Positions 2,882 through 64,000 of a stretch of DNA of 64,000 nucleotides are shown here, one piece after another. The stretch lies in contig NZ_MEEX01000021.1 of NCBI RefSeq assembly GCF_001724605.1, positions 18,501-82,500 on the forward strand, in the 5' to 3' direction. The position numbers and the translations under genes were made by a program. This DNA is from Phenylobacterium sp. SCN 70-31 (GTDB lineage Bacteria; Pseudomonadota; Alphaproteobacteria; Caulobacterales; Caulobacteraceae). Position 1 is the stretch's first letter. Each line of letters opens with the position of its first letter. The notes under the pieces are model-generated. The model saw only the letters and a program-made list of their open reading frames with translations. It made no database searches and was not told the DNA's origin.

Positions 2882-3279
2882 GCCGCCAGGTCCTTGGTCA
2901 GGTTCTCGGGGGGCCAGGACGGGAGGCGGATGGTCGCCGCCGGCGCGGCGATGTCGTCCAAGTTCACATGGAGCCGGCCGTTGCGGAACGTGGCCGAAAC
3001 CGCCTGGGGCCAGGGAATCTGCCGCGCGGCGAAGCCATCGCCCACCCGGCAGAGGACCAGAGCCATGCCCCCCGACTTCGCCAGGGCGCCCGCGCCGTCC
3101 GATGCGGTCCAGATCGCGTCGATGGATCGGGTGGGGAATTCCTCGGCGAGGAGGGCCAGCGCCTTGTGGTCGTCCAGCGGCCGGACCGGCTTGGCGATCT
3201 TGGCCCAGGCGACGATCGCGACGAGCGCGCCCACCGCCGCCGCCGAAAGGGCGAACTGAATGAAGAACGCCTCGTCCAA
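2878..3279 (-). CDS. Hypothetical protein with one N-terminal membrane helix
   Basis: 133 aa, not recognised. Residues about 8-26 form one membrane helix (FALSAAAVGALVAIVAWAK), followed by a soluble domain rich in small residues (ALLAEEFPTRSIDAIWTASD). The gene ends in a 4-base overlap with the hydroxylase-type gene downstream, so it is likely a membrane-anchored partner or neighbour in the same operon. Function is not inferred. Confidence 0.7.
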   Translation of the reverse strand: MDEAFFIQFALSAAAVGALVAIVAWAKIAKPVRPLDDHKALALLAEEFPTRSIDAIWTASDGAGALAKSGGMALVLCRVGDGFAARQIPWPQAVSATFRNGRLHVNLDDIAAPAATIRLPSWPPENLTKDLAA

Positions 3280-59423: not shown

Positions 59424-60089
59424 ATGTGCAATCTCTACACCCTCGCGCCCGGCCTCGACGCCCTGGCGGCCGACTTCGAGAAGCTCGGGATCAAGCTGCG
59501 GCTCACCAGCCCGCAGGCCTTCGACAACCAGCCATTGAAGCCGTACGTCGCGCCCAAGGGCCTCGGGATCTTCGCCCGGCCCATCGACCCCGCCGCCCCG
59601 GCCGAGGGCCTGGAGCCCGTCGTCGGGACGTGGGGCGTCATCCCCTTCTTCCACAAGGGTCCCGCCAAGGCGTGGAAGTCGGCCACGAACAACGCCCGCT
59701 CCGAAGACATGCTGACCAAGCCGACCTGGCGCGGGATCGTGAAGACGAACCGCTGCATCATCCCGGCCGATGCGTTCACCGAGTGGACCGGGCCTAAAGG
59801 CGCGAAGACCAAGCACGCGATCACCCGTGCCGACGGCCAACGTCTGTTCTTCGCCGGGCTCTGGGCCGACCACACCTGGGAGGGCGAGCGAACCGAGAGC
59901 TACACGATGGTGATGCAGGCCGCAGGCGGTGACGACGACATGGCCCCGTTCCACGATCGACAGCCCGTCGTGCTCGACCGGGACAGCGCCCGCCTCTGGC
60001 TCGACCTGTCCGCCGATCCGCTGGCCGCGATCCGGCCTCCCCTGCCCGGTACGTTGGCGTTCGACCCGCCGGAGCCGGCGGCGGCTTAG
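59424..60089 (+). CDS. SOS-response associated (SRAP/HMCES) abasic-site protein
   Basis: 221 aa. The catalytic Cys follows the initiator Met (MCNLYTLAPG), then SATNNARSED, AFTEWTGPKG with the active Glu, and the His in MAPFHDRQPVVLD. SRAP proteins form a thiazolidine cross-link with abasic sites in single-stranded DNA and protect them. Usually the last motif reads HxRMP; here it is HDRQP. A LexA box precedes this operon, matching the SOS link of the family. Confidence 0.93.
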   Translation: MCNLYTLAPGLDALAADFEKLGIKLRLTSPQAFDNQPLKPYVAPKGLGIFARPIDPAAPAEGLEPVVGTWGVIPFFHKGPAKAWKSATNNARSEDMLTKPTWRGIVKTNRCIIPADAFTEWTGPKGAKTKHAITRADGQRLFFAGLWADHTWEGERTESYTMVMQAAGGDDDMAPFHDRQPVVLDRDSARLWLDLSADPLAAIRPPLPGTLAFDPPEPAAA

Positions 60090-60895: not shown

Positions 60896-61174
60896 TCATC
60901 GACACCCCGTGCTCGCCGCCTCCAGTCCTGCGATATAGCCGTCTCTCTGCTCCCGTCCTGCCAGGAGTAGGCGGACCCGCTCTGCGATGTCAGGGGCGCC
61001 CTTGAGGGCTGACGGGCTGTCGGCGTAGGTCGGTCGCGGCGGGGCTTCGGCGGCGCACGGGACGGGGATAGGGACCTTTACCTCAACGGTGCGGATCGTG
61101 GGCTCGGGCGTCGTGGCGCAGGCGGTGAGGGTCGCCGAAACGACCCCCACCAGGACGATGCGGTCAGGCCGCAT
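60896..61174 (-). CDS. Rz1-like outer-membrane spanin lipoprotein
   Basis: 92 aa from the ATG at 61174. The lipoprotein signal ends at the lipobox-like TLTAC, followed by a proline-rich stretch (TPEPTIRTVEVKVPIPVPC) and DIAERVRLLLAGREQRDGYI. Small proline-rich lipoproteins at the end of phage lysis modules are o-spanins (Rz1) that join Rz to disrupt the outer membrane. The start overlaps the Tad1-like gene by 11 bases. Confidence 0.7.
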   Translation of the reverse strand: MRPDRIVLVGVVSATLTACATTPEPTIRTVEVKVPIPVPCAAEAPPRPTYADSPSALKGAPDIAERVRLLLAGREQRDGYIAGLEAASTGCR

Positions 61175-61568
61175 GGGTTCCCTCGACACCGCGGACCATA
61201 CGGGCTCGGGTTCGGGCGCCGAGCCACTGTTGCGCCTCCTCCAGCTTCGTGAGCGCCAGGGCATTCTCACGGCAGGAGAAGGGGCCGGCCTGGAAAGCGC
61301 GGAGCCGGTCCACGAGGATCGCCAGCAGCGCCTCATGGGTGAGGCCGTTGACGCCCACCTCGCCGATAGGGCCGTTCTGGAACAGGATCGTCGAGTGCTC
61401 CGCCGGCTGGCCATGCCGGGCGGTCCACGGATCGGAAGGGTTCGACGCGCTGTTGAACCCCGTGATGTGGTACAGGTGACAGGCCCCGCCGGAGCCCGGC
61501 TCGTCCAGCACTTCGATGACGAGCTTGTCGTTAGCCGGGTTCACCCGGTGATCGGTGAGCGTGCGCAT
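61164..61568 (-). CDS. Tad1-like anti-Thoeris cyclic-ADP-ribose-sponge protein
   Basis: 134 aa. The first half is beta-type (HLYHITGFNSASNPSD, ILFQNGPIGEVGVNG), the second a helical hairpin (LLAILVDRLRAFQAGPFSCR, ENALALTKLEEAQQWLGART) ending RGVEGTHAA. This layout and the FQNGP, CRENA and VEGTH segments match the phage Tad1 family, which binds gcADPR signals of Thoeris defence. F92, N102, R119 and R123 keep the spacing of the ligand-binding residues I recall for a Tad1 (82, 92, 109, 113). Call is by memory of the family; no search was run. Confidence 0.7.
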   Translation of the reverse strand: MRTLTDHRVNPANDKLVIEVLDEPGSGGACHLYHITGFNSASNPSDPWTARHGQPAEHSTILFQNGPIGEVGVNGLTHEALLAILVDRLRAFQAGPFSCRENALALTKLEEAQQWLGARTRARMVRGVEGTHAA

Positions 61569-61636
61569 GCGGCACTCCCTTCATTCGCCGGCAGATGGCG
61601 GCCGACACGCCTTCGCGGCAGGTTCGCCGCAGAACT

Positions 61637-62032
61637 TCATTCCCCGTACTGATCGATCAGCCGCGCGGCCTCGGCGCACTTGTCCGGCCCGATCCGCTCG
61701 GACAGGATGCGATCCACGTTCCGCCGATGGCTCTCTGCGACAGCGCGGGCCGCCTGAGCCGCCTTTCGGCTTTCGGCCACTCTGGCGTCGGCTTCCCGCT
61801 TGAGCCCGTCCACGGCCCGGTTGTGGGCGGCTATCGACGCCTCCAGGCCGGCCCGGTTCCGCTGGCAGGCTTTCGTCTCGTCGCGGGCGGCGTCGCGGGC
61901 CTTAGCGGCAGACGCCACCTCCCCCTTCAGCCGATCGATCCTCGCCCCCGGCCCTACGAACGGGGTGACGTGGTACAGGCCCACGGCAAGGGCCGCGGTC
62001 AGGGCGTAGGGGGCAAGGCGGAGGGCGATCAC
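61637..62032 (-). CDS. Rz-like inner-membrane spanin
   Basis: 131 aa from the GTG at 62032; GGAGGG is 6 bases upstream and the start overlaps the endolysin stop (GTGA). One N-terminal membrane helix (LRLAPYALTAALAVGLYHVT) leads into a long coiled coil (IDRLKGEVASAAKARDAARD, SRKAAQAARAVAESHRRNVD). This is the structure of an i-spanin (Rz), which spans the periplasm in the last step of lysis. The ORF-track version is a long shadow. Confidence 0.8.
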   Translation of the reverse strand: MIALRLAPYALTAALAVGLYHVTPFVGPGARIDRLKGEVASAAKARDAARDETKACQRNRAGLEASIAAHNRAVDGLKREADARVAESRKAAQAARAVAESHRRNVDRILSERIGPDKCAEAARLIDQYGE

Positions 62033-62502
62033 GCGAGGCCCTCCATGCAGAGTTTGCGTTCGGCCGCACGCCGGTTGACCAGGCCGCGCATCTTCTGGCC
62101 GCCCGCGTACACCCACTTCGACAACTCGGCGCACGCGCCCGGCAGGTCCCCAGACCTCGCCTTCCGCGACAGGGTGGACGCGCAGAACTTCGTCGCCCCG
62201 ACGTTGAACCCGAACGAGACGAAGGCCGCGTGCGTCTCCAGCGGTAGGGTCTCCGGGAGGCAGGGGGCGATATCGAGCCCGTGCTTCACCACGTCGTCGG
62301 CGAGCATGCCGACGCACTCCTGCTCCGTGTATCGCTTGCCCAGCACTACGCCCCTGGTCGAGCCATAGCAGGCGGTCGGTAGGTTCACGCCAAGGGCGGG
62401 GTCGGGATAACCGACCGGGACATAGCCCTCGAATGCCGCGATGGTACCGACGGCGACGGATGATGCCGCCAGGACCCCAGCTAGAACCCTGACCCTACTC
62501 AT
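62029..62502 (-). CDS. SAR endolysin (glycoside hydrolase 24 lysozyme)
   Basis: 157 aa from the ATG at 62502. A weakly hydrophobic Ala/Gly-rich N-terminus (VLAGVLAASSVAVGTIAAFE) is a signal-anchor-release segment, directly followed by the lysozyme active site: Glu25 in AAFEGYVPVGYPDPALG, Asp34 and Thr43 (spacing slightly longer than the standard E-8-D-5-T), then ACYGSTRGVVLG. It cuts peptidoglycan once released from the membrane. The next gene overlaps its stop. Confidence 0.9.
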   Translation of the reverse strand: MSRVRVLAGVLAASSVAVGTIAAFEGYVPVGYPDPALGVNLPTACYGSTRGVVLGKRYTEQECVGMLADDVVKHGLDIAPCLPETLPLETHAAFVSFGFNVGATKFCASTLSRKARSGDLPGACAELSKWVYAGGQKMRGLVNRRAAERKLCMEGLA

Positions 62503-62552
62503 GTTGGCGTTCCGTTCTGGTTTTCGGGACCGCTTCGCGATACGCTCCGCCC

Positions 62553-63248
62553 ATGGCGAAGAACCCCCGACTGATTGACATGACAGGACTGCGCTTTGGC
62601 CTTTGGTCCGTGCAGGAGAAGGCCGGGAACAGCCCAAGAGGCGGCGCGCTTTGGACGTGCAGATGCGACTGCGGCCGCTCCGGTGTCGTTGCGGGATCTG
62701 ACCTTCGCGGCGGGAAATCCACGAACTGCGGTTGCGCGAATCTGAACCGCCTCGGCGACCTCCGCCGAACGCACGGCTCTACAACTACCCGCCTGTACGG
62801 CATCTGGCAGAACATGCGCGCCAGGTGTCGCAATCCCCGCAACCCGGGTTACGTCCACTACGGCGCTCGCGGAATTTCGATCTACCCCGAGTGGGAGGAG
62901 TTTTCCGCATTCTCCGAATGGGCCGAGGCCGCTGGCTACGCGGACAACCTGTCCATCGAGCGGGTCGATAATGACCGCGGCTATAGCCCAGAGAACTGCA
63001 TCTGGGCCGACGCCAAGACGCAGGCGCGAAACCGCAGCATCGTTCGACGTGCGCCAGACGGTAGATCGTGGGCCGAGATCGCGGAGGTTAACGGGGTTTC
63101 GGCGCGAGTCCTCACGAACCGCATCAACGCTGGCGGATGGCCGCCGGAACTCGCCGCGACGTGGCCAGTCGGTAAGCGATTGAACCCCAACGCCACGAAT
63201 GCCCTCGGGCAGTTTGTGAAGCGCGAGGCTCATCTTTGGCGCCGATAG
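62553..63248 (+). CDS. HNH/AP2-like nuclease, probable homing endonuclease type
   Basis: 231 aa on the strand opposite the lysis genes. It has a zinc-ribbon-like start (WTCRCDCGRSGVVAGSDLRG, NCGCANL), then RLYGIWQNMRARCRNPRNPG, HYGARGISIYPEWEEFSAFS and LSIERVDNDRGYSPENCIWA, a set found in phage homing-type endonucleases, and a C-terminal HTH-like repeat (GRSWAEIAEVNGVSARVLTN). Its end falls where a SAR-like coding start is broken. Nuclease activity is inferred from family; catalytic residues are not certain. Confidence 0.75.
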   Translation: MAKNPRLIDMTGLRFGLWSVQEKAGNSPRGGALWTCRCDCGRSGVVAGSDLRGGKSTNCGCANLNRLGDLRRTHGSTTTRLYGIWQNMRARCRNPRNPGYVHYGARGISIYPEWEEFSAFSEWAEAAGYADNLSIERVDNDRGYSPENCIWADAKTQARNRSIVRRAPDGRSWAEIAEVNGVSARVLTNRINAGGWPPELAATWPVGKRLNPNATNALGQFVKREAHLWRR

Positions 63249-63304
63249 GCGCTGGCGGTCAGCAGGCCGACGATGGCCGCGATGGAGGCGCGAGGGGCGC
63301 TCAT
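63230..63304 (-). pseudogene. Truncated SAR-like start (24 codons), coupled to the holin gene
   Basis: MSAPRASIAAIVGLLTASA then YRRQR and stop. The start lies in the stop of the holin-like gene (ATGA). The first 19 residues look like a SAR/signal helix, as in the endolysin at 62502, and the last 5 codons come from the reverse strand of the nuclease gene's end. It looks like the 5' end of a broken endolysin gene. Confidence 0.6.
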
Positions 63305-63645
63305 ATCGCAGTCCCCATGAGGAACTGATGCGCCGCCGCCGCGATGGCCGCCCCGAACCGGTAGAAGATCACGATGCCGCTGGCCGCCCCGAGGATCGTG
63401 AGCGCCAGCTTCCCGTGCTCCATCCACCCCATCGACGCCTTCACGGCCGGCGGGCCCTTGCTGAACAGGTCCGTCAGCGTCTTCACCGAGCCCGCGATCT
63501 CATCGACCTTCTTCGCCAGCGCGTGGATGCACTCGTGCGTAGCGTTCTGACCGTCTGCGAGGTCCTGCAGGGCCTCCGGCGTGCGCTTGCCGCGCGTCTC
63601 AACAGGCTTGAAATCCACGTCGGCCCTCACTGCTCTCGGTGACAT
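63301..63645 (-). CDS. Holin-like phage membrane protein
   Basis: 114 aa from the ATG at 63645 with GGAAG at good spacing. A helical cytoplasmic-type N-terminus (KRTPEALQDLADGQNATHEC, VDEIAGSVKTLTDLF) is followed by one clear membrane segment (LALTILGAASGIVIFYRFGA). Position just ahead of endolysin, with ATGA coupling, suggests a holin or antiholin; no family signature was recognised. Confidence 0.6.
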   Translation of the reverse strand: MSPRAVRADVDFKPVETRGKRTPEALQDLADGQNATHECIHALAKKVDEIAGSVKTLTDLFSKGPPAVKASMGWMEHGKLALTILGAASGIVIFYRFGAAIAAAAHQFLMGTAI

Positions 63646-63812
63646 GAAGTTGCTTCCGCTTGCTGGCGCTGCGCCGCCTCGGTGAGCAGGATTTGCCCGC
63701 GCTCTGCGATGTCCTCGCCAAGGCGCGACGCCCGGTTGACCTCGATCCCCCAGAGGTCGCCGATGGGCCGGTCAAGGATCACCTCGCCCCATTGCCAGTC
63801 GCTGAGGGACAT
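63627..63812 (-). CDS. Small phage hypothetical protein (61 aa)
   Basis: 61 aa, AGGAG precedes the ATG. MSLSDWQWGEVILDRPIGDL then helical, basic-acidic residues to EATSCHREQ. It overlaps the holin-like gene by 19 bases. Not recognised. Confidence 0.6.
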   Translation of the reverse strand: MSLSDWQWGEVILDRPIGDLWGIEVNRASRLGEDIAERGQILLTEAAQRQQAEATSCHREQ

Positions 63813-63846
63813 CGCGGCTCCTGTCGGATCGGATACGGGGAGAAGG

Positions 63847-64000
63847 TCAGGCCAGCGCCGCGCGGGCGGCCTCGACGCGCAGCGCCAGGGCGTCCCGCTC
63901 GCCGATCACCTCGGCCAGGCGCCGCACGCCGGCCGCGGACCCGCGGGATGCGCGGATCGCGGACCTCGAGGTGCGCGCGGCCGAACTGGCGGCGCGGGCG
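63847..64000 (-). CDS. C-terminal part of a phage protein (partial)
   Basis: Runs off the right edge. The visible 51 codons end SAAGVRRLAEVIGERDALAL then RVEAARAALA and stop; Ala/Arg-rich, probably coiled coil. The reading frame is open to the edge. Not recognised and not in the ORF track; moderate support from its place upstream in the lysis cluster. Confidence 0.45.
   Translation of the reverse strand, partial: ARAASSAARTSRSAIRASRGSAAGVRRLAEVIGERDALALRVEAARAALA

Follow-up and report, generated by a model that had tools for sequence, protein, structure and literature searches.

The lysis locus of a prophage in Phenylobacterium sp. SCN 70-31 probably carries a homing-type element that inserts itself into phage endolysin genes, bringing with it a rescue copy of the front of the gene it breaks. 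The window analysed here is a stretch of 64,000 nucleotides from contig NZ_MEEX01000021.1 of this strain, and the putative element in it would consist of an HNH-family nuclease gene lying antisense to its target together with a divergent copy of the target's 5' end. At the level of sequence, an association of such a nuclease with an endolysin gene is seen at 16 loci, along with stumps of displaced endolysin genes, empty sites and chimeric endolysins at three loci, and purifying selection on the nuclease; from these patterns we infer that the nuclease would cleave endolysin genes and home during co-infection, the carried copy being immune.

The lysis genes of the window are read on the minus strand, beginning with a 114 aa holin-like gene (63301-63645), so called from its C-terminal hydrophobic stretch and its place ahead of the endolysin, which had no convincing match in Pfam, PHROG or NCBIfam. 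Its stop codon overlaps the next start (ATGA), which opens the stump of a displaced SAR endolysin 5' end, MSAPRASIAAIVGLLTASA (63249-63304, minus strand; 56 nt, 19 codons), codon 19 being common to the end of the nuclease gene. The stump frame stays open to give a 24-codon ORF on the minus strand, MSAPRASIAAIVGLLTASAYRRQR, running from the ATG at 63304 to an end at 63230, the last 5 of its 24 codons being the antisense of the nuclease gene end. The nuclease gene itself, of 231 aa (MAKNPRLID...WRR), lies on the plus strand (62553-63248), opposite to the lysis genes, a point absent from the first reading of this DNA, and its stop codon (63246-63248) forms the boundary of the stump, with an equal boundary found at other loci. 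A divergent spacer of 50 nt (62503-62552), with the nuclease start facing one way and the endolysin start the other, leads to a complete lysozyme-type SAR endolysin of 157 aa (62029-62502, minus strand) that has its own uncoupled start. The earlier note had given a holin-coupled ORF at 63304, a break at 63246-63248 and a second SAR start at 62502, and all of these coordinates hold. The endolysin matched Phage_lysozyme (PF00959, 1.8e-31) and PHROG 7 (5e-46), and its N-terminus is complete, weakly hydrophobic and Ala/Gly-rich, is predicted to be of the SAR type and aligns with SAR N-termini. By analogy with the loci L234, L280 and L334, the three in which a substitute 5' part could be measured (approximately 30-75 codons), the putative element-borne part of the window endolysin would span 62280-62502 on the minus strand. 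An i-spanin-like gene (61637-62032, minus strand; PHROG 3774, 1e-7, function unknown) has its start overlapping the endolysin stop. The contig stops at the window end, so that phage genes further upstream lie beyond the contig.

On the 3' side of this cassette lies a 134-aa gene (61164-61568, minus strand) that matched PHROG 2428 at 1e-30 and whose C-terminal part resembles the Acb2/Tad1 hairpin domain, at a score short of the gathering threshold (PF24729, 2.3e-5), and small Acb2-like ORFs are similarly placed 3' of the lysis cassettes in G074 and G193; its product is possibly an anti-CBASS/Thoeris sponge. A 221-aa ORF starting MCNLYTLAPG (59424-60089, plus strand) looks to be of the SRAP/YedK type.

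For so short a stump, its excess over chance was assessed in several ways. Among the 3072 19-mers beginning at start codons of the window, 12 were equally hydrophobic without polar or charged residues, and for NTGA starts the figure was 4 of 652, two of the four being the stump and the endolysin itself. With a position-specific profile built from 57 dereplicated SAR endolysin N-termini, the stump ranked second of the 3072, its score was reached by 26 of 20000 shuffles, and its end was placed 8 residues ahead of the catalytic Glu. The closest N-termini were KPRRSLVAVVG and RPSKSLAAIVG, both from outside the endolysin clade of the downstream gene, and similarity between the short stump and the downstream N-terminus was non-specific (297 of 1000 shuffles); a tblastn search of phages with the stump peptide gave no match. 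In most relatives the SAR endolysin begins on the holin stop, as the stump does (70 of 105 loci, some of them duplicates, and two of the loci nuclease-bearing); G178, a nuclease-free Phenylobacterium relative, is among them. The outcome that the earlier note named as refuting, nuclease-free relatives with an unrelated short gene or none after the holin, was not seen: the gene at that junction in them is an endolysin. As far as sequence comparison carries, we concluded that an insertion occurred in the window and that its stump is the 5' remnant of a displaced endolysin gene. If the reading is true, short SAR-like ORFs between holin and endolysin would be stumps and not genes.

The window nuclease matched the HNH endonucleases of PHROG 374 (3.5e-55), with no convincing model in Pfam or NCBIfam. 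No PDB sequence matched it, and its AlphaFold2 model (pLDDT 86.5) had no Foldseek match at E 0.001; the best relevant structure was the HNH enzyme PacI (Z 6.1, 2.7 A, 74 residues), a match that is suggestive only and stands among unrelated rows of similar Z. Support for an HNH fold is modest, PHROG being the only family match. Homologues were found in 821 phage records. When 165 viral loci bearing one were examined for a lysozyme or amidase within 500 nt, members of a single clade alone had such a neighbour. This clade was recovered in a tree of 59 rows, in which the 9 endolysin-associated nucleases grouped together (98/81; 1 change; 0 of 500 shuffles) and the window nuclease clustered with those of L280 and L234 (97/91). 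A class-wide genome search found a clade nuclease in the window's genome only, and a search of the genus in that genome and in Phenylobacterium sp. J367 only. Most members begin with M[AT]KN[PA]R, and the reading frame is intact in all 16 loci. The dN/dS ratio between the window and J367 nucleases was 0.14, and in the other pairs nonsynonymous change was low with synonymous sites saturated, a pattern that indicates purifying selection on the nuclease.

Such a nuclease was found at 16 distinct loci, namely the window and at least 15 other phages (J367, L111, L234, L280-L284, L334, L336/L337, which are one sequence, L341, L342 and L345-L347), all but the window and J367 coming from IMG/VR. At every one of them a complete endolysin, a lysozyme in 15 and an amidase in one, comes immediately after the antisense nuclease. 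The J367 nuclease is 63% identical to that of the window and has the same position and orientation, with 49 nt between nuclease and endolysin and an unrelated holin upstream. J367 has a second nuclease of the wider HNH family (L058 12909-13523; approximately 40% identical) some 2 kb away from the one beside the endolysin, and the assembly has a frameshifted version of this second gene in a duplicated contig end. In L111 (3424-4742) the order is lysozyme stump, nuclease and Amidase_2 endolysin, and the endolysin type has apparently changed at the element.

In 12 of the 16 loci a recognisable endolysin 5' stump survives in frame between the holin gene and the nuclease stop. Besides that of the window, these are the stumps of L280 (MTPRQRLAAKIGAGAVALVLPVVMLYEGTVLRS(Y), which includes the catalytic Glu), L334 (MKTSPAGRKAIALREGNI), L282 (MAMKASKRGLAEIASHEG), L283 (MMANPITYRTALEIASHEAIIRQAYKDSV), L341 (QLRRDEGEVLSAYPDSL), L342 (QLKRDEGEVLHAY), L111 (a lysozyme stump, MTRRINAAGLALIKEFEG), L336 (MTRRINAAGLSHIK), L281 (MKTSTEGLI), L284 (SESTKVAAYR) and L234 (GTGACGC). 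Two loci were counted as uncertain: J367, with a remnant of only 8 nt (ATGAATAG), and L347, whose stump was assigned to no family in a search for which short stumps fall below the sensitivity. In L345 and L346 the nuclease abuts the holin stop and the stump is absent. Direct homology was seen for the stumps of L280, L334, L282 and L283, and when stumps were compared with their own downstream endolysins, none of 1000 shuffles scored as well for L280, L282 and L283, 7 did for L281 and 19 for L284. Six stumps (L280, L283, L284, L341, L342 and L347) end near the YxD codons, and the others end earlier, the breakpoint falling from 7 nt to approximately 100 nt into the endolysin ORF. Several breaks lie at the conserved YxD codons themselves, and in these the Tyr codon, read on the other strand, serves as the nuclease stop. 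A single homing site was considered and is not claimed, because breakpoints vary among loci and L345 and L346 abut the holin stop. The SAR micropeptide that the earlier note had envisaged as a possible functional product finds no support and was set aside: from locus to locus the stumps differ in length, type and tail, they are often not of the SAR type, and two loci have none.

Nuclease-free relatives were available for three loci, and these comparisons carry the argument for replacement. In the first, L280 3685-4111 matches L249 3095-2669 at 81.5% on the upstream side, ending inside the endolysin ORF, and L280 2322-2846 matches L249 3640-3116 at 93.5% on the downstream side; since the matches flank both sides, 838 nt in L280 replace 20 nt of the L249 endolysin ORF. 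The L280 stump is 97% identical in protein sequence to the start of the L249 endolysin, while the L280 endolysin itself is 57-61% identical to that of L249 over its first 135 nt and 80-100% thereafter. In the second, L234 was compared with L206, L203 and L224, whose holins are 90-93% identical to its own, and identity is lost 7 nt inside the endolysin ORF; in the pairing with L206 the upstream match breaks off at 2265/1012 and matching is regained at 3190/1213. The L234 and L206 endolysins are 51-68% identical over the first 225 nt and 75-95% thereafter, and against L233 the insertion amounts to 731 nt for 7 nt. In the third, the 56-nt stump of L334 is identical at 49 of 56 positions to the first 56 nt of L349/L350, and its new front is 62-69% identical to these over 90 nt, followed by mostly 73-91% over the remaining gene (against L350 alone, 67% over 90 nt and then mostly 80-91%); another 79 L334-type lysozyme loci all lacked the nuclease. 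Beyond the divergent first 30-75 codons, the endolysin is up to 97-100% identical to that of the nuclease-free relative. The carried copy specifies a protein similar to that of the stump but uses different codons, as in L341 (QLRRDEGEVL and QLRRDEGEIL, with 34 of 57 nt identical).

Based on these three comparisons, we concluded that the element brings a nuclease and a divergent endolysin front while the back of the resident gene is kept, and the genes of L280, L234 and L334 read as chimeras with a front from the element, a back from the resident and the old front left as the stump. The system has the marks of a free-standing homing element, with a homing-associated nuclease family and with occupied and empty alleles at three loci, the window not being one of the three. 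The core of the earlier note's proposal, an endolysin gene broken by a homing-type nuclease gene with its 5' end left over as a stump, is supported. The earlier note had set a homing endonuclease insertion with gain of a new start against arrival of the nuclease with a replacement endolysin, and these now appear as two sides of one event: a divergent 5' part did come with the nuclease, but replacement did not extend to the whole gene, the resident 3' part being kept (L280/L249, L234/L206 and L334/L349/L350). The window endolysin would be chimeric by analogy, and it is placed at that lower strength because the searches gave no close relative without the nuclease and G178 lies too far away; the window holin had no relative in 299 genomes of the family or in IMG/VR, no nuclease-free phage with this holin was found, and the comparison of the window and G178 endolysins (approximately 60% identity) gave no clear chimera breakpoint.

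Ordinary mosaicism of lysis modules would explain the locus by the shuffling of a linked nuclease-endolysin pair through illegitimate recombination, with the nuclease as a passenger or a marker of the crossover. The left-hand holins do differ freely among the window, J367 and L234, the lysozyme stump of L111 is paired with an amidase downstream, and the window's relatives G178 and J367 differ in having the nuclease, all in keeping with such shuffling. Nevertheless, the nuclease clade was found nowhere else, all three comparisons with empty sites place the right-hand join within the endolysin gene, where it keeps the frame and links homologous codons, and the antisense orientation is accompanied in nearly all loci by a tight abutment of stump and nuclease stop; we regard mosaicism as a doubtful explanation. 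Far less probable is a simple insertion, in which the nuclease alone entered and the endolysin evolved a new downstream start, its 5' end diverging later. The window could be read in this manner, as 8 residues separate the stump end from the catalytic Glu and a canonical SAR of the usual length would result if downstream residues 17-24 were added to the stump, but the downstream gene is complete at its N-terminus. The new 5' ends match the old ones along their whole length, as homologues and not as extensions, and divergence is limited to the first 30-75 codons; the empty-site results for L280, L234 and L334 argue against simple insertion at those loci. Although group I introns occur in the lysin genes of S. 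thermophilus and staphylococcal phages, splicing of the stump to the downstream gene, whether by such an intron or by some other element, is barely credible here, with no Rfam intron family up to E 10 in 61600-64000 (only a chance CRISPR-repeat match), the nuclease on the opposite strand, and an endolysin that is complete without the stump and whose N-terminus splicing would need to skip.

Under the preferred reading of a homing-type element with a rescue copy, the nuclease would cut nuclease-free endolysin genes in their 5' third, at several loci around the active-site (A/S)YxD codons, and repair of the break from an element-bearing genome would copy in the nuclease and its linked substitute 5' end. 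The substitute end would fuse in frame with the resident 3' part, so that the chimeric endolysin would be intact and, with its codons changed, would escape further cutting, and the old 5' end would remain as a stump still coupled to the holin stop, in the window as a 19-codon SAR peptide. Because a replacement front is supplied, the phage would keep lysis. In many loci the spacer between nuclease and endolysin contains, some 5 nt ahead of the nuclease start, a TGnTATAAT-like extended -10 (33 mismatches in sum; 0 of 2000 shuffles as low), which is good in J367, L280, L341, L334 and L284 (0-1 mismatch) and poor in the window (4 mismatches). The motif suggests that the nuclease may be driven by its own promoter opposing the lysis operon and that its transcripts, likewise opposed to that operon, may be near-leaderless.

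We consider it an even question whether the element is a natural home-and-rescue drive, in which the HNH clade would target conserved codons of the lysozyme active site and the recoded 5' end would restore the gene and escape cutting. On that same reading the element would spread and, in doing so, reshuffle endolysin fronts, and sometimes whole endolysin types, across phages of different hosts. If true, the home-and-rescue drives built by engineering would have a natural equivalent in phages, with an essential lysis gene as its target, and that gene would be open to repeated invasion without loss of function. Part of the front-end mosaicism of phage endolysins would then be explained, and the nuclease clade would have a predictable target testable in vitro.

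Free-standing homing endonucleases of phages resemble the element in that the nuclease gene lies beside its presumed target, flanking sequence is co-converted and nuclease genes stand at exchange boundaries. T4-type enzymes such as Seg and Mob co-convert their flanks or split genes (PMC2988022), lactococcal HNH genes show marker exclusion (PMC12724721), and nuclease genes mark exchange boundaries (PMC10448857). Such enzymes enter the gaps between genes, or divide a gene into halves that still work, whereas the element described here replaces the end of the gene that it breaks. The spanin locus of T5 and Shivani is closer, with a GIY-YIG homing endonuclease and a regenerated downstream N-terminus (PMC6139136), but it involves another nuclease family and a single spanin comparison, and the accessible sections of that paper report neither a stump nor a divergent 5' copy (PMC6139136). 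The open-access literature, to the extent that its text was available and with most subscription journals outside it, gave no account of a nuclease that lies antisense and brings a new front for an endolysin gene. In synthetic home-and-rescue drives, an essential gene receives a nuclease and, with it, a recoded piece that rescues the gene and should escape cutting. Those drives are engineered; in the phage element the immunity of the carried copy is a property that we only infer. In the Allomyces and Glomus mitochondrial mORFs, an endonuclease ORF carries a foreign gene end, and in the targets the native end is 91-98% identical to relatives and the inserted end 64-81% (PMC3630166). As in the phage element, the foreign end of the target is carried, an expressed hybrid gene is formed and the native end is left behind (PMC3630166). 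The mORFs replace the C-terminus, encode LAGLIDADG or GIY-YIG enzymes, belong to fungal mitochondria and are partly in phase with the gene (PMC3630166), in contrast to the N-terminus replaced, the antisense HNH-family gene and the lysis gene target of the phage element. The phage element works like the mORFs but is not a member of that group, since it replaces an N-terminus and does so in a phage gene, and on the literature available its nearest precedents are these fungal mitochondrial elements, which swap the opposite end of the gene.
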